The position numbers and the translations under genes were made by a program. A DNA stretch of 46,013 bases from contig JAPKYT010000053.1 in NCBI GenBank assembly GCA_026394155.1, positions 1 through 46,013 on the forward strand, given 5' to 3'. Shown piece by piece: positions 8,414 through 46,013 of this stretch (its first letter is position 1; each line of letters starts with the position of its first letter). The DNA comes from a bacterium. Its GTDB lineage: Bacteria; Electryoneota; RPQS01. The notes under the pieces are model-generated. The model saw only the letters and a program-made list of their open reading frames with translations, ran no database searches and had not been told where the DNA came from.

Positions 8414-8455
8414 GCGGGGCTCTTCCGGAGTCCCGCCTGTTCGCTCTTTCATTTT
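8414..8455 (+). terminator. Probable intrinsic terminator after rplS
   Basis: GCGGGGCTC (8414-8422) pairs with GAGTCCCGC (8428-8436) with one G-T wobble and a five-base loop. A T-rich stretch follows (tgttcgctctttcatttt), though the T run is interrupted. The position, between the ribosomal block and the cobalamin riboswitch, fits a transcription end. A partial attenuator is an alternative. Confidence 0.6.
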
Positions 8456-8460
8456 CACCC

Positions 8461-8602
8461 GCGGTTGGTGTCCGCTTCGGGCGGAAGAATAGGGAAGACG
8501 GTGAAAGTCCGTCGCTGAGCCGCAACTGTGACGCACGGGCCGCGTGGCCTGTTGCCCAGCCAGGAGACCTGCCAGCCGTGCATTAGCCCTTCGGACGTAA
8601 GG
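8461..8602 (+). promoter_or_regulatory. Cobalamin (adenosylcobalamin-type) riboswitch aptamer
   Basis: The conserved core is unmistakable: AATAGGGAA, ACGGTGAAAGTCCG, GCTGAGCCGCAACTGTGAC, then the B12 box GCCAGGAGACCTGCC near 8559-8573. A short hairpin follows (CCTT 8588-8591 with AAGG 8599-8602). The aptamer sits directly upstream of an ECF S component and two TonB-receptor-type genes, so bound cobalamin is expected to switch that operon off. The exact 5' limit (P1/P2) is uncertain by about 15 bases. Confidence 0.96.
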
Positions 8603-8614
8603 TTCAGGTGGAGG

Positions 8615-8634
8615 CTCTCCGCGTGGGCGGAGAG
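8615..8634 (+). promoter_or_regulatory. RBS-sequestering hairpin (riboswitch expression platform)
   Basis: CTCTCCGC (8615-8622) is perfectly complementary to GCGGAGAG (8627-8634), leaving a GTGG loop. The right arm contains the Shine-Dalgarno GGAGAG, which is spaced 6 bases from ATG 8641. A hairpin over the ribosome binding site directly after a cobalamin aptamer indicates translational control. The anti-sequestering partner was not worked out. Confidence 0.8.
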
Positions 8635-8640
8635 ATGGCC

Positions 8641-9198
8641 ATGAGTCTCGAAACCCGGCTCGGGCGGTCGCCGCTTCTGCTCACGCGCATGGCGGCCTTC
8701 GTGGCGGTGGGAATCGCGCTGGGTCTTGCTCTGGCGGCCATTCCCAACGTCGAGCTTGTTACCGCCGTCAGTTTCATGTCCGGTTTTCTGCTGGGGGCGC
8801 GCGCGGGCGTTGTCACCGGCGGGCTCATCGAGGCTCTGTTCGCCGGTTTCCACCCGCTGGGCAGTTCACTGGGTCTTGTCCTGATTGCGCAAATGGCCGG
8901 CATGGCACTCGCCGGACTTCTCGGAGGAGTGGCGGCGCGCGTTACGGGTCCGTCCCGCCGGGGAATCCGCTACGCCGCCAGCATCGTTCTGGCCGGTGCT
9001 GTGGCCACCATCGTTTTCGACGCTCTCACCAACCTGGCCTTTCCCGTGATGGCCGGGTTTTCTCGCTCTCAGACTTTGGTCACATTGGCCGCCGGTGTTC
9101 CCTTCGCGGCTATCCATCTGTTTTCCAATCTGCTTATCTTCGGTGTCATTGTCCGTCCTTTGATCCCCCGGCTCGAAAGAGTGTGGCTCGCCTCGTGA
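8641..9198 (+). CDS. ECF transporter S component, probably for cobalamin or a precursor
   Basis: Small integral membrane protein (185 aa) with about six hydrophobic segments, in the size and layout of ECF-transporter substrate-binding (S) subunits. The segment PNVELVTAVSFMSGFLLGARAGVVTGGLIEALFAG, with its Gly-rich helices, is characteristic. Start ATG 8641 is chosen over ATG 8635 and GTG 8608 because only it has well-spaced GGAGAG. The riboswitch upstream and the TonB receptors downstream imply cobalamin as substrate; this is inference. It would need the shared EcfA/EcfT module; an EcfT-like gene begins at the right edge of the window. Its stop overlaps the next start (GTGA). Confidence 0.82.
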   Translation: MSLETRLGRSPLLLTRMAAFVAVGIALGLALAAIPNVELVTAVSFMSGFLLGARAGVVTGGLIEALFAGFHPLGSSLGLVLIAQMAGMALAGLLGGVAARVTGPSRRGIRYAASIVLAGAVATIVFDALTNLAFPVMAGFSRSQTLVTLAAGVPFAAIHLFSNLLIFGVIVRPLIPRLERVWLAS

Positions 9199-10985
9199 AA
9201 CGGATCATCCTCGTTGCCCTTCTTTGCCTTCTGCCCGTGTCGGTTGCCTTGGCCCAAGGACCGGTCTTTCAGCAGACCGATCTGTGGGCCCTTCCCTACG
9301 AAGACTTGAGTGATCTTCTGCGGCGCTATCCGGGAATGTACCCTCTCGACTACGGAACACTGGGTGCGCCCATGGCCTTCCGGCCGTGGAATCTTCATCC
9401 GTGGGAACTTCGAGTTGAGCGGGATGGAATCCCGCAGAATCGCCGCTTCGACGGTTTGTACGAACCCAATCTGCAACCGGCAGGCGAACTGGAGACCATC
9501 CGCTATGACTTTCTATCGGGCGGCGCGGCGGGATTATTCTCGCTGACCACCCGCACGCTGAAAGCCGACACGCCGTACACCGAGTTCCAAATCCGCGAGG
9601 GTTACTACGGCTACGGAACTGTGGACTTCGCCCACGGCCAAAGGCTGCATCGTTCGCTCACCCTTGAGATGACCGGCCGCCTCGGATGGTACGACGGCAT
9701 GCGCACACCGAGCGCATCGCGCGCGACCAGAGTGCGCGGCCGAGTGGGCATGGATCTCGGCCGGCGGTGGCGCGCTCAGGCGACGTATTCGGGTTCGAAT
9801 GTGAAAACCCAGTTTCTCCTGAACCCGCGCCACGATTATGTGCCGTCCCGTGTGGAAGGCATTCTCGAGGTTTTCGAGAAGGACTCGCTGCGCACGGTCT
9901 GGAGTCCGTCTCTCACCATCTACTCGCGTGAGGACCGTGAAACGTGGGGTTCTCCTTGGCGTGCGCGCGAACTCAACTCCGGTCTAATGGCCGAGGTGCA
10001 TGCGCAGCTCGCCCGGCAGCATTTCACATTCCGTCACTTTGACTCATGGACGGAAATCAACTTCCCGGGCATGACCCGGCGCAGCGAGTTGGCAATGGGT
10101 TTGACGGCGCGCGACTCGTTGGCGTTGAGCGTCGTCGCTCTGGATCTCCGCGCGGGAATTCGCCGCGAGTCGGGCTGGTCACCCGGCGGCGAAAGTGATC
10201 AGCGATGGCTGGCGGATTTTTCAGCGCGCGCTGAAACGCAGTCCTGGCGGAACGTTCGCGTGCGCGCGGGAGGAAGCTACTCCGAAAGCGCCGTTCCCAT
10301 CGGGTGGTGGAGAGGCGAATACCGTTTGGCGGACAGGCCTCTGGTCATCGCGCCGGAGATGACAAATCTGACGCTTGATTACGCGGGTTCTCATCAGGGC
10401 GGTCCGCCGGTGGATCGTTACCTCGGTTCCGAGTTCGGATTGCGCTGGTCACGCGGGCAGGCACTCTGCGATCTGGCCGTGTTGACCATCGCCCGTCCCG
10501 GCGACTTTTCCAGCCGTTTCGTGGTCGGCGATACGGCCGTCCGCCTGATCCACGAACGCGATCCGAACCAAGAGACACAGGTGGGCGTCGCGGCTGACGC
10601 GGTGATTCCGCTGTGGTACGGCCTGCGGATTGAATCATGGTGGTTCCGGCAGGCCAACAGTTCGGACGTGGGCGAATCCAGCGACGCGCGGGGGTGGAGC
10701 CGTTTGTACTTCGAGCGAGCCTTCTTCAAATCACCGCTGACCATTCGCAGCCACCTCAGCTATGAGTACCTTGGTAGGCGCTGGGCGTTCTCCGACGGCT
10801 TCCCGGCAGGAGTCTCCATCGGGCCAAGCCATTTGTTCGGCTTTCGCGTCTCGGCCACCGTGCGCGGCGTGACCCTCATCTGGGGGACAGAAAACGTGCT
10901 CAAGGAGCGTTACTCGTTCATGCCCGGCTATTGCATGATCGCCAAAGAGGAGTACTTGGCGTTCATCTGGAGACTTTGGCTGTGA
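9195..10985 (+). CDS. TonB-receptor-like outer-membrane barrel in the cobalamin operon
   Basis: 596 aa, with signal peptide VKRIILVALLCLLPVSVALA ahead of Gln. Residues about 30-120 look like a shortened receptor plug: DLLRRYPGMYPLDYG, WELRVERDGIPQNRRFDG, and a GGAAGLFSLTTRT ending that matches the usual plug-barrel junction. The remainder is rich in alternating aromatic strands (GYYGYGTVDF, AQATYSGSNV) and ends in WRLWL, as expected for a beta-barrel. The N-terminal carboxypeptidase-like domain and an obvious TonB box are missing. GTG 9195 overlaps the previous stop. It may be an accessory channel or a second receptor; family placement by sequence alone is tentative. Confidence 0.7.
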   Translation: MKRIILVALLCLLPVSVALAQGPVFQQTDLWALPYEDLSDLLRRYPGMYPLDYGTLGAPMAFRPWNLHPWELRVERDGIPQNRRFDGLYEPNLQPAGELETIRYDFLSGGAAGLFSLTTRTLKADTPYTEFQIREGYYGYGTVDFAHGQRLHRSLTLEMTGRLGWYDGMRTPSASRATRVRGRVGMDLGRRWRAQATYSGSNVKTQFLLNPRHDYVPSRVEGILEVFEKDSLRTVWSPSLTIYSREDRETWGSPWRARELNSGLMAEVHAQLARQHFTFRHFDSWTEINFPGMTRRSELAMGLTARDSLALSVVALDLRAGIRRESGWSPGGESDQRWLADFSARAETQSWRNVRVRAGGSYSESAVPIGWWRGEYRLADRPLVIAPEMTNLTLDYAGSHQGGPPVDRYLGSEFGLRWSRGQALCDLAVLTIARPGDFSSRFVVGDTAVRLIHERDPNQETQVGVAADAVIPLWYGLRIESWWFRQANSSDVGESSDARGWSRLYFERAFFKSPLTIRSHLSYEYLGRRWAFSDGFPAGVSIGPSHLFGFRVSATVRGVTLIWGTENVLKERYSFMPGYCMIAKEEYLAFIWRLWL

Positions 10986-13114
10986 TCGTGCTGCTGCTGA
11001 TTCTGACAGCCATTTGCGGCGAAGCGTTGGCACAGGCCGGAGCCGGCATCGAAGTGCGATGCACGCCGGCGACGGCGGTGGCAACTCTGTGGCCCGGCAA
11101 TCAAACGCAGCGCACCGATGCCGGGGGCCGCATTGTATTCGACGGTCTGGCGGCGGGAACATACCGGCTGGAGATCTGTGCCGCCGGATTTGCCGTGCAG
11201 GATAGCACGCTTCAAGTAGCCCACGGTGAGCGGGTCTCTTTGGTCATCATTCTCGAGCCTCTGGCGGTAACGCTGCCCGAAATCACCGTGGAGAGCGCGC
11301 GCGACCGCGAATCCCGCCGTTCCTTCAGCCGCCGTGAGATCGAGGCCAGTGCGGCGCGCAGCCTGCCCGATTTTCTGAAGGATGCCGCCGGACTCGACCT
11401 GCGGAGTGACGGCACGGCGGGAGGAGTTCAGACTCTGCGCATCGGTGGCTCTCAGCCCGAGCACGTTCTCGTGTTAGTGGATGGCCGCCGGCTTCAGAAC
11501 GTGGGCTCGGGCGAAGCGGACTTGTCCGCAGTTCCTCTCGAGTGGGTCGAATCTGTCGAAGTCACGCGGGGTGGAAGCCCCGAATTCGGGGGTGAAGCCA
11601 TCGGCGGAATTCTCCGCATCACCACGCGCAAAGGCGAGCAGAGCGACTTGGCCGCCGACGTGGAGTACCGCCCAACCTGCACGCGGGCAACTTGCTCGCG
11701 CTCCGACCATTTCGGCTCCGTGTTTGTTTTCTTGTCTCTCACACGAACGCAAGGGCCCGGTGACTTCAAGTATACTATCACCGAAGATGATGGAACTGGC
11801 CCATTTACGGTCAATTTGGACAGCAGCTTCCGGCGTGCGAATGCCGACATAACGCGCGACCAAATGCTGGCCAAAATCCGTTCTCCCATTCACGGTGCCG
11901 GTATGCTCGAGATCAGCGGCGCTCTCGACCGAGCTAACCGCGGCATGCCCGGCTATTTGGCACCGCAGCTCACGCCTCTCGCTCGCCAGAACATGCGGCA
12001 GGAAGCCTTCAACGCCAGGCTGGTGCACGACCGGAAATCGTTGTCGCTGGAGGCACGAGCGTCCTACCAGCGGGATCGCCGCGAATATGTAGACTCCGAC
12101 CCGCTGGCTCTGGTGCACGAGAGCCGGGAATCGAGCGATCAATGGGACATCGAGAGTCGCGCGAGCTTCGTCCGCGGAAAGAGCGCGCTCTCCGGCGGCG
12201 CGCAAGTCGGCCGCGAAACCTTGTTCAGCGAATCTATCGCCCATAGCGGCGCCGCGCGGAATCGCACGGCAGCATGGACTCGTCTGCGCTGGAGCGCGCT
12301 CTCTGACCGTAGCACCCGCCTATCCCTCGCGGCTTGTCCCGCTCTGCGATGGGAACGGTATGATAACGAACAGGTGCTCTTGCCCAGCGCGACGCTCGCG
12401 CTTGAATCGGCCCGGCGCGTCCACATCGGTGCGGAAGCCACCTGGGGACGCTCCTATCACGCGCCTTCGCTGTATTCTCTCTTTTGGCTTGACGATCAGG
12501 TGGCGCAGGGCAACCCGGATCTTCGTCCCGAGCTTTCGCAGGAACTCACCGGCAGTCTCCACGCCCAGAGTTCATCGGCGAATCCGAGCCGCGCCGAGCT
12601 GTGCGTTTCTGATCAGCGTGTCGAGGACCTCATCATCTGGCGGCGGACGTTCGACAACCGCTGGAAACCGTTCAACCTCAAGCAAGCGCACATCCGGACG
12701 CTCGACCTGTCTGCCGAGCAGGCACTATGGAAAGAGCAGGTGAAGGTCTCCGGCGGCGCAAACTGGACGGAAGCGCGCGATGCCACCGATGACCGCAACA
12801 CGGGCGGCAAGTACCTCACGTTTCGCGCACCGCGGTCCCAGCGGCTCGGCGTCGAGCTTCGCGCGCGCGGCTTCGATCTGCTGACCCGCATGCGCTGGGT
12901 GTCGGCGCGCCCGGTTTTGGAGACCAATTCCAAGTGGCTTCAGGCCTACCGAATCTTGGATCTTCGACTCTCCTATGCGCTGCACACGAAAGGGGCGCAG
13001 ATCGAGCCCGCCATCGGCGTGGACAACGCGCTCGATGAGGATTATCGCTTGATTCGCTTCGCTCCCATGCCGAAGCGGGAGTGGTTCATCGCCGTCCGAA
13101 TCGTGCAAGTGTAA
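10982..13114 (+). CDS. TonB-dependent receptor, BtuB-like
   Basis: 710 aa outer-membrane receptor. Signal peptide IVLLLILTAICGEALAQ is followed by a carboxypeptidase-regulatory-like domain (about 25-95, with AGGRIVFDGLAAGTYRLEI). A TonB-box-like PEITVESA comes next, then the plug (about 120-215: LPDFLKDAAGLDLRSDG, VLVLVDGRRLQ, VESVEVTRGG, GEAIGGILRITTR). The barrel ends in FIAVRIVQV. The start is GTG 10982 (GTGA overlap, GGAGA 8 bases upstream) rather than ATG 10931, which would spoil the signal peptide. The cobalamin riboswitch upstream makes it the likely outer-membrane cobalamin transporter. It could carry another corrinoid, but unrelated cargo is unlikely. Confidence 0.9.
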   Translation: MIVLLLILTAICGEALAQAGAGIEVRCTPATAVATLWPGNQTQRTDAGGRIVFDGLAAGTYRLEICAAGFAVQDSTLQVAHGERVSLVIILEPLAVTLPEITVESARDRESRRSFSRREIEASAARSLPDFLKDAAGLDLRSDGTAGGVQTLRIGGSQPEHVLVLVDGRRLQNVGSGEADLSAVPLEWVESVEVTRGGSPEFGGEAIGGILRITTRKGEQSDLAADVEYRPTCTRATCSRSDHFGSVFVFLSLTRTQGPGDFKYTITEDDGTGPFTVNLDSSFRRANADITRDQMLAKIRSPIHGAGMLEISGALDRANRGMPGYLAPQLTPLARQNMRQEAFNARLVHDRKSLSLEARASYQRDRREYVDSDPLALVHESRESSDQWDIESRASFVRGKSALSGGAQVGRETLFSESIAHSGAARNRTAAWTRLRWSALSDRSTRLSLAACPALRWERYDNEQVLLPSATLALESARRVHIGAEATWGRSYHAPSLYSLFWLDDQVAQGNPDLRPELSQELTGSLHAQSSSANPSRAELCVSDQRVEDLIIWRRTFDNRWKPFNLKQAHIRTLDLSAEQALWKEQVKVSGGANWTEARDATDDRNTGGKYLTFRAPRSQRLGVELRARGFDLLTRMRWVSARPVLETNSKWLQAYRILDLRLSYALHTKGAQIEPAIGVDNALDEDYRLIRFAPMPKREWFIAVRIVQV

Positions 13115-13125
13115 GGAGTGATGAG

Positions 13126-14403
13126 TTGCTCTGGCGTTTCATGGTCATGCTGTTGCTGATTGCCGTCCGGTGCCGGGCGGACACGCGCCTCTACGTGGTT
13201 CAGTACAATGACGAGTCGCTGGGACGGATTCATCCGGCGAGCGGCGCCGTCAATGCCCACGTGCTGGACTTGGGTTACGGCTGCAATGAGATTGTCGCTC
13301 ACGGATCGCGGCTTTATGTGACCAATTCGCTCATCAACACCGTGCAGGAAATAGATGCCGAGAATCAAGTCACCCTGCGCGACATTCCCACCGCGGGCGG
13401 TGTCAATCCGTACTCTCTCGCGGCGCTGAATAACGACACTCTGGCCGTGACGAACTTCGTCACCAACAACGTGCTGCTCCTGCGCATCTCGGACGGGCAG
13501 ATCGTGGGCAGCCTACCTGTGGGGCTTGCACCCGAAGGGATTCTTGCCCACGGAGACCGGCTGTACGTGTGTCTCACTCGCTACTCGGCTCAGGGCTATG
13601 GGCCGGGGCGTGTAATGATCTACGACCGTAGCACGCTGACGCTCGTAGATAGTCTGTCGGTCGGCGTGAACCCGCAGTTCGCAGCCGTGGATGACCGCGG
13701 CCGCTTGCACGTCGTGTGCACCGGCAACTACACGAACATACCGGGGGAAATCCACGTCTTCGACTTAACAAGCCGGGAGAGTGCAAGCGTGGTGCCGGTG
13801 GGCGGCGCGCCCAGCGCTGTCAGCTTCGGCGGGGAATGGGCCTTCGCCGCAGCAGGCGGCTGGGCGGGAACAGGTCAGGTGTTCCGCTACCGGCTCAGCG
13901 ATCTGGCCGTCGTGAATGGCGCAGACAATCCCATCCAAACCGGCCTCGGCGCGACCGATGTGGTCGCCATGCCCGATGGATCATTTTTCGTGAGCTGCGC
14001 CTTGGCCGATACGGTCGAGCATCGCTCCGCCGAAGGGGCGCTCCTCGCGTCCTACGCGATGGGTGCCGGTCCGGGCTGCATGGTACTGTATGAGTCGGCA
14101 TCCGCGTCTCCGCCCGGCCGCATCTCTCCCGCAGGCTCCGCCTATCTTGCAGAGGCGTTTCCCAACCCTTTCAATAGCACTGTTCGGCTGCGCCTGTCCG
14201 CTCCCGCTTCACATGCATCAAACATCATAATTTACAATTGCATAGGTCAGAGAGTTGCTGAGCTGAGGCTGGCGGCTGGAGCGTCAGAAGCTTGGTGGCT
14301 TCCCACAGCAAGCGACGCAAGCTGCTTGTCTACAGGAGCTTATTTTGCCCGATGGGATGGTGATGACGCGAACTCTGCGCTCCGCTTGGTCTTCGTGAAG
14401 TAG
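13126..14403 (+). CDS. Secreted beta-propeller with C-terminal sorting domain, BtuG-like candidate
   Basis: 425 aa. TTG 13126 is chosen: AAGGAG lies 7 bases upstream and it gives signal peptide MLWRFMVMLLLIAVRCRA. Residues about 20-335 hold repeating propeller blades of YncE/NHL type (LYVVQYNDESLGRI, LYVTNSLINTVQEID, LAVTNFVTNNVLLL, LYVCLTRYS). Residues about 340-425 are a type IX-like sorting domain with FPNPFNSTVRL and GAYFARWDG. BtuG of Bacteroides is a beta-propeller that captures cobalamin on top of BtuB, and this gene is directly behind a BtuB-like receptor in a cobalamin-riboswitch operon. Cargo binding is inferred. No lipobox is seen (Cys16 is preceded by AVR), unlike lipoprotein BtuG. 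Confidence 0.8.
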   Translation: MLWRFMVMLLLIAVRCRADTRLYVVQYNDESLGRIHPASGAVNAHVLDLGYGCNEIVAHGSRLYVTNSLINTVQEIDAENQVTLRDIPTAGGVNPYSLAALNNDTLAVTNFVTNNVLLLRISDGQIVGSLPVGLAPEGILAHGDRLYVCLTRYSAQGYGPGRVMIYDRSTLTLVDSLSVGVNPQFAAVDDRGRLHVVCTGNYTNIPGEIHVFDLTSRESASVVPVGGAPSAVSFGGEWAFAAAGGWAGTGQVFRYRLSDLAVVNGADNPIQTGLGATDVVAMPDGSFFVSCALADTVEHRSAEGALLASYAMGAGPGCMVLYESASASPPGRISPAGSAYLAEAFPNPFNSTVRLRLSAPASHASNIIIYNCIGQRVAELRLAAGASEAWWLPTASDASCLSTGAYFARWDGDDANSALRLVFVK

Positions 14404-14409
14404 GGTTTG

Positions 14410-14448
14410 GCAGCCGGCTGAAAGGGCCGATCCGGTTGCTATTTTTGT
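14410..14448 (+). terminator. Intrinsic terminator ending the cobalamin operon
   Basis: GCAGCCGG (14410-14417) pairs with CCGGTTGC (14432-14439) with one G-T wobble and a 14-base loop, followed at once by TATTTTTG. It lies seven bases after the beta-propeller stop. The right arm overlaps the -35 element of the trpS promoter. Confidence 0.75.
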
Positions 14449-16242: not shown

Positions 16243-17019
16243 ATGTCCGACGAAGCTCCCCGCCACGAATCTTCAGAATCTCCGCTGCCGGAAGACGCCG
16301 AGTTGCCGCTGGACGTCGAGCCGGTCGGCATTCCGGATGACAACGGCCGGTTCCTCAAGGCGGCCACCGAGGCGCTCATCTTCGCCAGCGCCGAACCGCT
16401 GACGGAAAGCCAGTTGACCGCCGCTTTGGGCGCGCGGGTGAAGGGCGAATTGCCGCGCATCGTGGCGGAACTGAACTACGAGTATCAGCGCGACGGGCGC
16501 GCCTTCGAGATTCTCGCCGTGGCCGGCGGCTATCAGTTCTTTACGCGCCGCGACTTTTCGGGCGTGCTGCGCCGCTTGTCTTTGACGCGGGCGCGCACGC
16601 GACTCTCGCGGGCCGCTCTGGAAACGCTGGCGGTGGTGGCCTATCGCGGACCGGTCACGCACGCCGAGATTGACGAGATTCGCGGCGTGGATTGCGGCGG
16701 TGTGCTGCGCACTCTTCTCGACCGCCGTCTGCTGGCCGTGAAAGGCCGCGCGCAGGTTTTGGGACGGCCGCTGCTCTATGAAACCACGCCGGAGTTTCTG
16801 AAGCACTTCGGCCTGTCCGATCTCTCCGATTTGCCCCGCGATTCGGAGCTGCTGCGCGAATGGGGGCAACCGCGCAACATCGAAGAGCCCGTGCCTGCGG
16901 AGCCGCCGCTCGAAGATTCCTCGCAAGTTGATCTCACCTTGGCGGAAGACCAAGGGAATGGCCGGATGCCCGCACAGCCGGTCGAAGAAAATGAGTCCGA
17001 GAAGGATATGACCCCATGA
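16243..17019 (+). CDS. scpB: Segregation and condensation protein B
   Basis: Dimeric winged-helix partner of ScpA in the SMC condensin. Motifs: ATEALIFASAEPLTESQL, FEILAVAGGYQFFTR, LSRAALETLAVVAYRGPVTHAEIDEIRGVD and the second winged helix LLDRRLLAVKGRAQVLGRPLLYETT followed by FLKHFGLSDLSDLP. At 258 aa it has acidic extensions at both ends (about 30 N-terminal and 60 C-terminal residues). Its stop overlaps the next start (ATGA). Confidence 0.94.
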   Translation: MSDEAPRHESSESPLPEDAELPLDVEPVGIPDDNGRFLKAATEALIFASAEPLTESQLTAALGARVKGELPRIVAELNYEYQRDGRAFEILAVAGGYQFFTRRDFSGVLRRLSLTRARTRLSRAALETLAVVAYRGPVTHAEIDEIRGVDCGGVLRTLLDRRLLAVKGRAQVLGRPLLYETTPEFLKHFGLSDLSDLPRDSELLREWGQPRNIEEPVPAEPPLEDSSQVDLTLAEDQGNGRMPAQPVEENESEKDMTP

Positions 17020-18716
17020 TGCTGCGTAACTCCAAAGTGCTGGTGCTGGGCGGGTGGGGGTTGGTCGGAATGGCGGTGTGCCGAAGACTGCTTGCGCGTG
17101 GCCCTGCCAAGCTGGTCCCTCATTCTTTGCGGCGGTCCGAAGCGGAGGAAGCGGCGTGCGAGCTGGCCGCCGAGTTTCCACAGGTCACCGTTTTGCCCGC
17201 GTGGGGCGACATCTTTGTCCGCGAGGAGTTCAAGGACATCCCCCGCACGGAAATCATGAAGTCGCGTGAGATGCGCTGGACGTTCGTGGAAGACGTGTTT
17301 GAGAAACTGACTCCCGAGCGGCTCGAGCGCTTTTTCCTGTACCGCCTTATTATCGAACACCGTCCCGATCTCATTGTGGACTGCGTGAATTCGGCCACCG
17401 GCTTCGCCTATCAGGACATCTACTCGGCCTATTACGACGTGAAGAACGTGATGGAGGTCGAAGGCCGCGGCCTCCCGCCGCATGACCCGTTCTTCGACCG
17501 CGTGGAACGTTTTTGCGGCACCGTCTATGTTCCGCAGTTGATCCGTCACATTCAGGTGCTGCACGAAGCCACGTCGCAAGCCGGCGTGCATACGTACCTC
17601 AAAGTCGGAACCACCGGCACCGGCGGCATGGGATTCAACGTTCCTTACACCCACTCGGAAGCGAAACCGTCCGGACAGTTGCTGGCCAAGTCCTCCATGG
17701 CCGGCGCGCACAGCATGCTGCTCTTTCTCATGGGCCGCACTCCCGGCTGCCCCTACGTAAAGGAAATCAAGCCCGCCGCGGCCATCGCCTGGAAGCGCAT
17801 CGCCTATGGCGAGGTGCTGCGCGGCGGCAAGCCCATTCCGCTCTACGATTGCCCGCCGGAGACGGCGGAGACTCTGGGCGTGACCTTCCTACGTTTGAAG
17901 AGCGGCAGCGGCGTGCCCCTCAATGAGAATCTCAAATCGGTGTTCATTGACACCGGCGAAAACGGCATTTTCTCGGTGGGCGAGTTCTACACCATCACTG
18001 CCGCCCAGCAGATGGAATTCGTGACGCCCGAGGAGATCAGCCAGGCCGTGCTCTGGGAGATTGAAGGAGGGAACAGCGGTCTGGACGTGATCGGGGCTTT
18101 GGACTCGGTCGTCATGGGACCGACTTATCGCGCCGGCATTTTGCGCGGCGCCGCCTTGAATGAAATGCGGCGGCTGGAGCACGAGCACAACACGGCCAGT
18201 GTGGCTTTCGAAATGCTCGGCCCGCCGGCGCTGGCCAAGTTGCTCTATGAAGCGTATCTCCTGAAGCTGGCTTATCCCGATCCGGCTGTGATTCCGTCGG
18301 AATCGGCGGCCACCATCAGCGCCAAAGTTTGGGAAATTCTCCATCGGGAGCCGGTGCTTCGCGCTACGATTATCAGTATCGGTGTGCCGATCCTGCTGCC
18401 CGACGGCAAGAGCGTTCTGCGCGGACCCGAAGTCAAGATCCCGGCCTACTCCGGCAGCAACGAGCTTCCCGTGACGCCGGGCGCGGTAGACGAATGGGCG
18501 GACAAAGGCTGGCTGGATCTGCGGCCTTCCAATATGCGGCGTTGGCAGCAGCGTGTGGCTGACTTCTTCAAAGCGGCCACCGAAGCGGCCACCACCGACA
18601 CCTCGTCGGGCTTCCCGTGGGAACGCCGTATGCTCGGCGAAGAAGACGAATTCTTCGCCGGTCGCATCGTCACTTATCTGTTCATCGAGGAAGAAAAGGG
18701 CGGGCGGATCAAATAG
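17016..18716 (+). CDS. Uncharacterised Rossmann-fold (SDR-like) protein
   Basis: 566 aa, not recognised as any characterised enzyme. The N-terminus VLVLGGWGLVGMAVCRRLLARG is a dinucleotide-binding GxxGxxG motif as in extended short-chain dehydrogenases. A YYDVK sequence (YxxxK pattern) occurs near residue 140 but its catalytic role is unproven. The middle contains a Gly-rich LKVGTTGTGGMGFNVPYTHSE segment typical of nucleotide or sugar binding folds. No signal peptide or membrane segment is seen, so it is probably cytosolic. It is locked between scpB (ATGA overlap) and cmk (one-base overlap), implying steady expression with core genes. The substrate is unknown. Confidence 0.6.
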   Translation: MMLRNSKVLVLGGWGLVGMAVCRRLLARGPAKLVPHSLRRSEAEEAACELAAEFPQVTVLPAWGDIFVREEFKDIPRTEIMKSREMRWTFVEDVFEKLTPERLERFFLYRLIIEHRPDLIVDCVNSATGFAYQDIYSAYYDVKNVMEVEGRGLPPHDPFFDRVERFCGTVYVPQLIRHIQVLHEATSQAGVHTYLKVGTTGTGGMGFNVPYTHSEAKPSGQLLAKSSMAGAHSMLLFLMGRTPGCPYVKEIKPAAAIAWKRIAYGEVLRGGKPIPLYDCPPETAETLGVTFLRLKSGSGVPLNENLKSVFIDTGENGIFSVGEFYTITAAQQMEFVTPEEISQAVLWEIEGGNSGLDVIGALDSVVMGPTYRAGILRGAALNEMRRLEHEHNTASVAFEMLGPPALAKLLYEAYLLKLAYPDPAVIPSESAATISAKVWEILHREPVLRATIISIGVPILLPDGKSVLRGPEVKIPAYSGSNELPVTPGAVDEWADKGWLDLRPSNMRRWQQRVADFFKAATEAATTDTSSGFPWERRMLGEEDEFFAGRIVTYLFIEEEKGGRIK

Positions 18717-36927: not shown

Positions 36928-37213
36928 AGTCATTCTGTGCGCTTGCTTGGCTCTGGCTCTGGCAGTGCCCGCCTCGGGTCTTGTCCTGAACGAAATCATG
37001 TACGATCCCGACGGCGACGAAGGCACAGACGAGTTTATCGAACTCTACAATGACGCGACGTTCCCGGTCAGCCTGCAAGGCTGGCGCATTTCCGACGGCG
37101 AGAGCGAGGACAACATTGTTGCTCTCGAGCAGGGACTGCAAGCGCTGCCCGGGCAGTATGTGTTAGTGCTTGACCCCGATTGTCCAACAGCACAGCCGAA
37201 ATGGTTTCGTTAG
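36908..37213 (+). CDS. Lamin-tail-domain secreted protein, N-terminal fragment
   Basis: 101 codons. Signal peptide (VEVILCACLALALAVPASG) followed by the first two-thirds of a lamin tail domain: LVLNEIMYDPDGDEG, FIELYNDATFPVSLQGWRISDG, LPGQYVLVLDPD. The frame then runs into ten unrelated residues and a stop at 37213. The missing end of the domain resumes in a different frame at 37180. A second, intact lamin tail domain downstream has about 25 more residues at the matching point, so a small deletion with frameshift is inferred. It overlaps yraN by 20 bases. Confidence 0.75.
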   Translation: MLFRHVEVILCACLALALAVPASGLVLNEIMYDPDGDEGTDEFIELYNDATFPVSLQGWRISDGESEDNIVALEQGLQALPGQYVLVLDPDCPTAQPKWFR

Positions 37214-38535
37214 TGGACGATCAAGGCCATACGGTGAGCAGCTACATCTACAGTCTGCTAAACCCGGAGGGTTACTCGGACGAGAAGATTCTTCCCCGGG
37301 GCGGCGACGACACCACGAACTGGGCGAATGCCACACAGCATCACGGCACACCGGGCGCGCGCAACAGCGTCACGCCGCCGGATCACGATCTGGCGCTTGC
37401 GCGGCTGTATTCCGTTCCGCCGTTTCCCCAGCGCGGAGACAGTTTTGTGGTTGGGAGTGTGGTGCGCAACGATGGACAACTCGCGCTGGCCGACACTCTG
37501 CGGCTTTTCGAATTGATCGGCGCGCTGCCTGAAACGGTACTCGTCCGTCTCTGGACTGCGCCCACGCTGCCGCCGGGAGACTCGGCGTCCTTCGATGCTC
37601 CGCTGTGGATGAGCGAGAGTGTCACCCGCCGCTTCTGGGCACGACTGTCGGGCACGGATGACCGCCCCCAAAACGACGCCCGCGGCCTCAGCGTTTCTCC
37701 CAGTGGCGAAGTTGGCTCTGTGCTCATCAACGAGATCATGTACGCTCCGGAACCGCAGCGCAGCGAGTGGGTGGAGCTGGTGAACACCTCGCCGTTTGCG
37801 CAGTCACTAAGCGGCTGGAGCTTTGGTGACGGAACGGGCATTGCCGACACGGTGCGGCGGTTCCGTCTTGCCGATGTGCAGATCGAAGCGGGAGGATTCG
37901 TTGTTCTGGCGGCGGATTCCACGATCCTCTATGAAAACGTGCCGCCGTTCGTGCCCATTCAGGTTTGGGAACATGCGCCGATCACGCTCAACAACACCGG
38001 CGATTCCCTCGTTCTCTACGATGCAAACGGCGCGCTGGCGGATCGCGTGGACTATCGTCCGTCGTGGGGAAACAGCACGTCTGGCTTCGGTCTCGAGCGC
38101 ATTTCGACGTCTTCCCCGTCCAATGATCCGCTGAACTGGGCATCTTCCCTCGACAGCACGGGCGCGACACCGGGCCGCGTGAACTCGCGGACGTCTCCTG
38201 CCTTAGGCGCGGTCACTGAAGTTCTCACACTGCAGCCGAATCCCTTTTCCCCCGACGGTGACGGCCACGATGACTTGTTGTTCATCCGCTACCGGCTCGA
38301 ACACGCCGACTCACGATTGGACTTGCGAATCTATGACGTGCGCGGTCGCGAAGTGCGACGCCTAACGAACAACGCGGCCGCCACGTTCAGTGGCGAGATC
38401 CTCTGGGACGGCAAGGACGCCGGTGGTCGCGATCTTCCCACCGGGCTTTACATCGTGTACCTCGAGGCGCTCGGCAAAGGCGGCACCCGCATTCAGTCCG
38501 CCAAACGCGCCGTGGCTCTGGCGCGACGCTCATGA
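37180..38535 (+). CDS. Lamin-tail-domain secreted protein, C-terminal part with sorting domain
   Basis: 451 codons from TTG 37180, just after an in-frame stop at 37171. It starts in the middle of the first lamin tail domain (LSNSTAEMVSLVDDQG, SDEKILPRGGDDTTNWANA, GTPGARNS). A CARDB-like beta-sandwich (about 70-170: RGDSFVVGSVVRNDGQ) comes next. A complete second lamin tail domain (about 182-335: VLINEIMYAPEPQRSEWVEL) follows. The end is a FlgD-like/type IX-style sorting domain (LQPNPFSPDGDGHDDLLFIR, LPTGLYIVYLEA). No signal peptide of its own; it belongs with 36908-37213. Four-base overlap with the ABC-F gene. Confidence 0.75.
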   Translation: MSNSTAEMVSLVDDQGHTVSSYIYSLLNPEGYSDEKILPRGGDDTTNWANATQHHGTPGARNSVTPPDHDLALARLYSVPPFPQRGDSFVVGSVVRNDGQLALADTLRLFELIGALPETVLVRLWTAPTLPPGDSASFDAPLWMSESVTRRFWARLSGTDDRPQNDARGLSVSPSGEVGSVLINEIMYAPEPQRSEWVELVNTSPFAQSLSGWSFGDGTGIADTVRRFRLADVQIEAGGFVVLAADSTILYENVPPFVPIQVWEHAPITLNNTGDSLVLYDANGALADRVDYRPSWGNSTSGFGLERISTSSPSNDPLNWASSLDSTGATPGRVNSRTSPALGAVTEVLTLQPNPFSPDGDGHDDLLFIRYRLEHADSRLDLRIYDVRGREVRRLTNNAAATFSGEILWDGKDAGGRDLPTGLYIVYLEALGKGGTRIQSAKRAVALARRS

Positions 38536-45343: not shown

Positions 45344-45370
45344 GTCGCCTCGGTGCTCAGCCGGGGCGAC
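45344..45370 (+). terminator. Stem-loop after ndk, probable terminator
   Basis: GTCGCCTCGG (45344-45353) pairs with CCGGGGCGAC (45361-45370) with one wobble pair and a 7-base loop. Only a short T run (GTTTG) follows, so its efficiency as a terminator is doubtful. It separates ndk from a new promoter. Confidence 0.5.
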
Positions 45371-45395
45371 GTCGTTTGGGGCAGAGAGGGAGTGC

Positions 45396-45424
45396 TTGAC
45401 TCTGCGAGTAATTATTTGTATATT
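45396..45424 (+). promoter_or_regulatory. Promoter for the EcfT-like gene
   Basis: TTGACT (45396-45401) and TATATT (45419-45424) are separated by 17 bases, followed about 30 bases later by a GAGG ribosome site and a TTG start. It is one of the best promoter matches on the + strand and lies in a locally AT-rich patch. Confidence 0.75.
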
Positions 45425-45454
45425 CAAAAGCTTAGTGAGAATACGAGGTTAAGC

Positions 45455-46013
45455 TTGGGACGTGCCGCGGGGTGGTCTGTTCACCCACTTTGCGCTCTGT
45501 GGGGGGCCTGCGTGTTTCTGGCGAGCCTGCTGATGATCGCTTCGCCAGTCAAGCTTATTATATTGTTTATTTTATTCTTATTGATTTGCGCTTTTTTGCA
45601 CGCGAACGTCATTGCGAGTTCAAGGCTACTGTTGCAGGCGTGGCCGCTTCTCCTCATTACGTTTGTCATACATGCGGTCATATCATCCCGAATTACGGCC
45701 GTTTTAGCTGGTCATGCCACGGCTTCACCCGACTTCTTCCAAGGACTCGGACTGGCCGCCATTTTCACCGTGCGCTTGGCGCTGATGCTGCTGACTGCGG
45801 GTGTTCTTTTTCGGTTGCACCCGATGCAGCGTTATGGTCAGGCCATTGGAGGCTTGTTTTCTCGCCTGCCGTTCGGGCGCAGAACCTTGGCTCAGGCTGA
45901 GCTTGCGGGCACGCTGGCTTTGCGATTTGTCCCGTTTGTCGGGCAAGAAGCCGCGCGGCTGAGGATGGCCCTGGCCGCACGCGGCGAAGCGCTTCCCAAG
46001 ACTCGTTGGGCGC
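45455..46013 (+). CDS. ECF transporter T component (EcfT/CbiQ-like), 3' end cut by window edge
   Basis: An open frame from TTG 45455 (GAGG 6 bases upstream) runs off the right edge; 186 codons are visible. The N-terminal two-thirds are hydrophobic (VFLASLLMIAS, LIILFILFLLICAFLHANVI, LLLITFVIHAVI, LALMLLTAGVLF). They are followed by LALRFVPFVGQEAARLRMALAARGEAL, which has the Ala-Arg-Gly signature and the layout of EcfT coupling helices. It could serve the S component at 8641. Its own promoter lies just upstream. The start region has unusually AT-rich codons (45550-45595). Confidence 0.8.
   Translation, partial: MGRAAGWSVHPLCALWGACVFLASLLMIASPVKLIILFILFLLICAFLHANVIASSRLLLQAWPLLLITFVIHAVISSRITAVLAGHATASPDFFQGLGLAAIFTVRLALMLLTAGVLFRLHPMQRYGQAIGGLFSRLPFGRRTLAQAELAGTLALRFVPFVGQEAARLRMALAARGEALPKTRWA

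Follow-up and report, generated by a model that had tools for sequence, protein, structure and literature searches.

A riboswitch-led operon predicted to combine BtuB/BtuG-type outer-membrane capture of cobalamin with a CbrT-like ECF S component

Behind a cobalamin riboswitch in the window (the whole stretch of DNA that was analysed, 46,013 nucleotides long), 4 co-directional genes on the forward strand encode an ECF S component, a receptor-like barrel that we call OMP2, a TonB-dependent receptor and a secreted beta-propeller, followed by a terminator-like hairpin. We consider it very probable that these genes form an operon for corrinoid import that B12 represses, in which propeller and receptor capture the ligand, the S component works on a shared ECF module, and OMP2 is the partner of the S component. 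That the operon transports is something we infer from sequence. ECF S-component importers are best known from Gram-positive bacteria.

The operon and its recurrence across genomes

An earlier note on this DNA had described riboswitch, S component, receptor-like barrel, TonB receptor and secreted propeller as one unit. All of these elements are confirmed, and their order recurs across genomes. The features, including the part of the ECF module that lies in the window, are as follows:

8449–8590, + strand: cobalamin riboswitch aptamer, RF00174 (87 bits, E 3e-20, gathering cut-off 31.5)
8615–8634, + strand: hairpin CTCTCCGC-GTGG-GCGGAGAG that would hide the Shine-Dalgarno (SD) sequence; its right arm holds the SD of the S gene, GGAGAG (8629–8634)
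8641–9198, + strand: ECF S component, predicted CbrT-like, 185 aa, start ATG 8641
9195–10985, + strand: OMP2, with signal peptide, plug domain and a barrel of about 22 strands, start GTG
10982–13114, + strand: BtuB-like TonB-dependent receptor with Plug, barrel and TonB box, start GTG
13126–14403, + strand: BtuG-like secreted beta-propeller, named from profile matches to BtuG
14146–14400 (limits approximate), + strand: T9SS type-A-like sorting tail of the propeller (Por_Secre_tail E 1.6e-4, below cut-off)
14410–14446, + strand: intrinsic-terminator-like hairpin (14410–14439) and T-run (TATTTTT)
45353–46013, + strand: N-terminal two thirds of EcfT, start uncertain, cut by the contig end

Apart from this aptamer, no cobalamin riboswitch was found in the genome (2.41 Mb, 88% complete). 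The SD hairpin downstream of it folds with a z of -3.6, with no shuffle equally good, and in 10 genomes of the same family 100% of its cells are paired, with two pairs changed on both sides. When no ligand is bound, the B12-box GGAGACCTG (8563–8571) could pair with CAGGT/CTCTCC (8605–8609 and 8615–8620) and so free the SD, an alternative that makes translational control, off with B12, the most likely mode of regulation.

The genes had been described as joined by GTGA overlaps. This holds for the first 2 junctions, which have 4-base overlaps at 9195–9198 (S component/OMP2) and 10982–10985 (OMP2/receptor), but not for the third, where an 11-base gap, with AAGGAG ahead of the TTG, separates the receptor stop from TTG 13126, the most likely start of the propeller. 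For the S component, an in-frame GTG at 8608, upstream of ATG 8641, is a less likely start. The closing terminator noted earlier is present as a terminator-like hairpin and T-run; it folds with only a slight advantage over shuffles (MFE -15.5, z -1.6), and a simple terminator scan overall gave a count no higher than chance expectation. From their translations alone, we read the flanking ORFs as rimM, trmD and rplS upstream and trpS downstream. A 566-aa ORF at 17016–18716 has no Pfam match at 1e-5.

We searched 61 genomes, 39 of them from the same phylum, and found the S component in 39 of the 61, including 37 of the 39 phylum members. The riboswitch lies directly before the S gene in 19 genomes, i.e., all 11 of its own family, both members of f4 and 6 of f7, and likewise in 4 separately fetched loci (L166, L167, L169 and L176). 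The whole S–OMP2–receptor–propeller cassette is present in 13 genomes, with several others cut by contig ends. In family f3, S component and OMP2 are together while receptor and propeller occupy a separate locus; in f5, the S component stands alone, with propeller and receptor at a separate locus behind a riboswitch. Named relatives carry the labels KSB1, Calditrichaeota, Neomarinimicrobiota and WOR-3. Because the gene order recurs in so many genomes, we reject chance co-location, and the comparison of riboswitch-linked S-component neighbourhoods that had been proposed as a check bears out the arrangement.

The inner-membrane step

Single-sequence Pfam matches of the S component to S-component families fall below cut-off. 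A profile of 33 relatives, searched against the PDB, finds CbrT (6fnp, E 4e-9), followed by RibU at E 0.03, and with E-values up to 1 this search returned no BtuM chain. The AF2 model (pLDDT 93) has the six-helix S-component fold, and Foldseek hits obtained with it are ECF S components at all of ranks 1 to 16, with probabilities of 0.92–1.00 and modest E-values (0.02 or worse). Helix 1 (TM1) contains an AxxxA motif (A17/A21, in the numbering of the translation from 8644), which we take to be the EcfT docking site; among the relatives, almost every aligned row has A, G or S at these positions. CbrT is a B12-specific S component (PMC5997447) that also carries cobinamide (PMC5997447). We infer that the protein is CbrT-like; a member of this type would be expected to show high-affinity cobalamin or cobinamide binding and ATP-driven uptake. 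The earlier note had held that relatives carrying a different vitamin would speak against its reading; this is not what we see, as the nearest solved relative is CbrT and the riboswitch directly precedes the S gene in 3 families.

The energising module was sought in the whole genome. Neither a FecCD permease nor a Peripla_BP_2 protein was found in it (88% complete), so that the proposed check for a BtuC-type permease or BtuF-type binding protein elsewhere came back empty. FecCD matches in the phylum sample are weak, at 22–47 bits (<48), whereas true permeases score 218–347 bits in genomes that do not belong to the phylum. Given that the genome lacks both families and that its relatives' FecCD matches score far under true permeases, we reject a BtuCDF system elsewhere in the genome. 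With a metagenome-assembled genome that is 88% complete this absence falls short of certainty, although assemblies of higher quality from the group lack BtuCDF as well.

The search for ecfA, by contrast, was successful, yielding EcfA1 and EcfA2 on one contig plus an EcfT whose gene is split by an assembly gap. EcfA1 and EcfA2 are in tandem on contig C30 (5015–5797 and 4320–5141 of locus L193), with the loops FQNPDHQ and FQFAEDLF; their best families are TIGR04520 and TIGR04521 (ECF ATPase 1 and 2), with scores under the equivalog cut-offs. The part of EcfT at the end of the window includes the first ARG motif, MALAARGEA, while the remainder, with the second (ALTVRGYD), opens contig C18, adjoining truA. 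Pfam CbiQ alone located EcfT on C18 only, whereas a clade-specific family model gives 131 bits for the part in the window and 64 bits on C18, placing most of the protein in the former. Relatives such as G002 and G008 share the gene order sucC-sucD-ndk-ecfT-truA. To judge from these genes, the genome encodes a complete though scattered ECF module (EcfA1, EcfA2 and EcfT), in what looks like the group II, shared-module arrangement. Since the ATPases sit on another contig, calling the operon self-contained was wrong: it lacks an energising module of its own, and the ECF module lies elsewhere, partly at the far end of the window. The central proposal of the earlier note, that outer-membrane capture is wired to an ECF inner-membrane importer, is supported, and both of the tests that it had named as capable of refuting it (a BtuCDF system and a different vitamin among S-component relatives) failed to do so.

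A second S-component-like frame is present on contig C88 of the same genome (G000; 1321–1998 of locus L202, + strand), just upstream of genes reading like complex I subunits. B12-binding domains occur in 3 proteins of the genome, and a 1216-aa frame with such a domain can be read as MetH.

We think it improbable that the S component acts alone, in the manner of BtuM, without an ECF module. In Gram-negatives, the S-like protein BtuM transports B12 as a solitary protein, and it was predicted partly via btuB co-localisation (PMC6072759). In addition, the family model does not detect EcfT in 3 fragmented relatives (G001, G004 and G006). However, EcfT is present in the well-assembled relatives checked, the genome itself encodes an ECF module, the presumed docking motif in helix 1 is kept, and the PDB profile search finds CbrT rather than BtuM. 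The last of these, together with the encoded module, also leads us to reject membership of the BtuM family.

Outer-membrane components and the S–OMP2 pair

The receptor has Pfam Plug and barrel domains above cut-off and, at its N-terminus, a CarboxypepD_reg-like domain and the TonB box LPEITVESA. Its best NCBIfam family is TonB-B12 (E 1e-40), at 139.8 bits and hence below the equivalog cut-off of 599.7, and its matches in the PDB are BtuB chains. The propeller profile matches BtuG of BtuBG complexes (8blw_B, E 4e-22; 8p97_B, E 2e-14).

The propeller has no lipobox, and thus not the anchor of a surface lipoprotein. A PNPFN-type T9SS tail is kept within its own family (the protein at 13126–14403 and those of L105, L106 and L111–L114), while some relatives in other families (e.g., L124, L122, L127, L150 and L155) have a lipobox and no T9SS tail, suggesting that one BtuG-like catcher may reach the surface by 2 routes. 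T9SS-type sorting in this organism is supported by a lamin-tail-domain protein with a CHU_C T9SS tail at 37180–38535. In family f5 (L149, L150, L153 and L154), the B12 receptor gene lies among several propeller-like genes, all behind one riboswitch.

It is very unlikely that the cassette carries another ligand, e.g., cobinamide or some other corrinoid precursor, or a different vitamin, while the riboswitch does no more than sense B12. In favour of this, the S family has diverged from those members that are characterised, and transport of cobinamide is known for CbrT (PMC5997447). Nevertheless, B12 is indicated independently by the S component and by each of the two outer-membrane parts, the riboswitch linkage recurs, and cobinamide would extend rather than contradict the preferred reading of corrinoid import.

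OMP2 is modelled (AF2, pLDDT 90) as a plug and a 22-strand-type barrel that superimposes on Escherichia coli BtuB (1nqe; TM 0.78/0.84, rmsd 3.6), and its profile matches BtuB1 (8blw_A, E 9e-12). No TonB box is found ahead of the plug: the mature chain begins at the plug (GPVFQQTDLWALPYEDLSDLLRRYPG), leaving no room for one. In distant relatives with longer N-termini, the absence of a TonB box is less clear. Of all its neighbours, OMP2 accompanies the S component most constantly: it follows directly in 32 of 39 genomes, including some that have their TonB receptor at another locus. On 3 separate contigs, the 2 proteins are fused in one reading frame (L124 8311–10614, − strand; L179 7980–10313, + strand; L180 4278–6211, + strand), joined by an internal signal-peptide-like stretch. 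We give little credence to OMP2 being an unrelated barrel that is in the operon by chance; the S component does stand without it in family f5 and in G041, but the adjacency in most genomes, the fusions and the BtuB fold argue otherwise.

Left uncut, the joint of about 30 residues in the fused frames would by our estimate be too short for crossing the periplasm, and for this reason a polyprotein cut by signal peptidase is the likeliest reading of the fusions. As a tentative and rather doubtful extension, S component and OMP2 might be a dedicated envelope pair, in which a BtuB-derived barrel without TonB box works directly with an ECF S component, by hand-off or co-assembly across the periplasm. 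The two would be produced through coupled translation or, in certain lineages, from a single polyprotein that is cleaved at a signal peptide within it. If true, the pair would be an import link between two membranes without a periplasmic binding protein.

Proposed route and relation to known systems

We propose the following route. When cobalamin is scarce, the riboswitch would leave the SD free and the genes would be translated together. The surface propeller would bind the corrinoid and lid the BtuB-like receptor, from which TonB would drive the ligand into the periplasm. Without BtuF or BtuCD, the S component would bind the corrinoid there, dock on the shared EcfT–EcfA1A2 module and, upon ATP hydrolysis, release its cargo inside the cell. 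OMP2, a barrel that derives from BtuB and whose TonB box has probably been lost, may serve as the outer-membrane partner of the S component, either as an auxiliary receptor or for hand-off.

Many B12-requiring Gram-negatives have BtuB but no BtuCDF, leaving the inner-membrane step unassigned (PMC6072759). The operon provides a conserved, riboswitch-linked candidate for this step in an uncultured branch around genomes labelled KSB1, Calditrichaeota and Neomarinimicrobiota, and suggests that a Bacteroides-type outer-membrane trap can be coupled with an inner-membrane engine of another kind. It also exposes a new barrel family, OMP2, that is sometimes fused to an inner-membrane subunit. In the open literature searched, with subscription journals mostly outside, we found no description of a riboswitch operon in which BtuB/BtuG-type proteins are combined with a CbrT-type S component. 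The claim that the layout is undescribed as a unit stands to that extent, but there is a Gram-negative precedent of another kind in BtuB with the solitary BtuM (PMC6072759).

The nearest system for the inner-membrane part is ECF-CbrT of Lactobacillus delbrueckii (6FNP; PMC5997447), which shares the S fold, the closest sequence match, the B12 context and a shared (group II) ECF module whose genes lie away from that of the S component. It differs in being Gram-positive, with the cluster nrdJ-cbrS-cbrT-pduO and no outer-membrane parts, whereas the S gene here heads a riboswitch-controlled outer-membrane uptake operon. For the outer-membrane part, the counterpart is BtuB-BtuG of Bacteroides (PMC10404256), likewise a TonB receptor beside a B12-binding propeller under riboswitch control. 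There, however, the pair works with BtuCD-type ABC transporters and BtuG is lipid-anchored; the operon described here instead has an ECF-type inner-membrane part and a propeller ending in a T9SS-type tail, with OMP2 as an extra component. BtuM and BtuB of Proteobacteria (PMC6072759) also combine a Gram-negative host with an S-like protein genetically linked to BtuB, but BtuM is solitary, has a Cys ligand and occurs in a host without ECF module, while the protein described here is closer to CbrT and its module is encoded. Caldithrix abyssi, from a neighbouring phylum, has a riboswitch-led BtuB locus as well (PMC5317091), for which the predicted inner-membrane step is BtuCDF (BtuB-BtuF/BtuCDF), not ECF. 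Each part of the operon is related to something known (CbrT, BtuB, BtuG and the riboswitch), and the S–OMP2 pair is its newest element.
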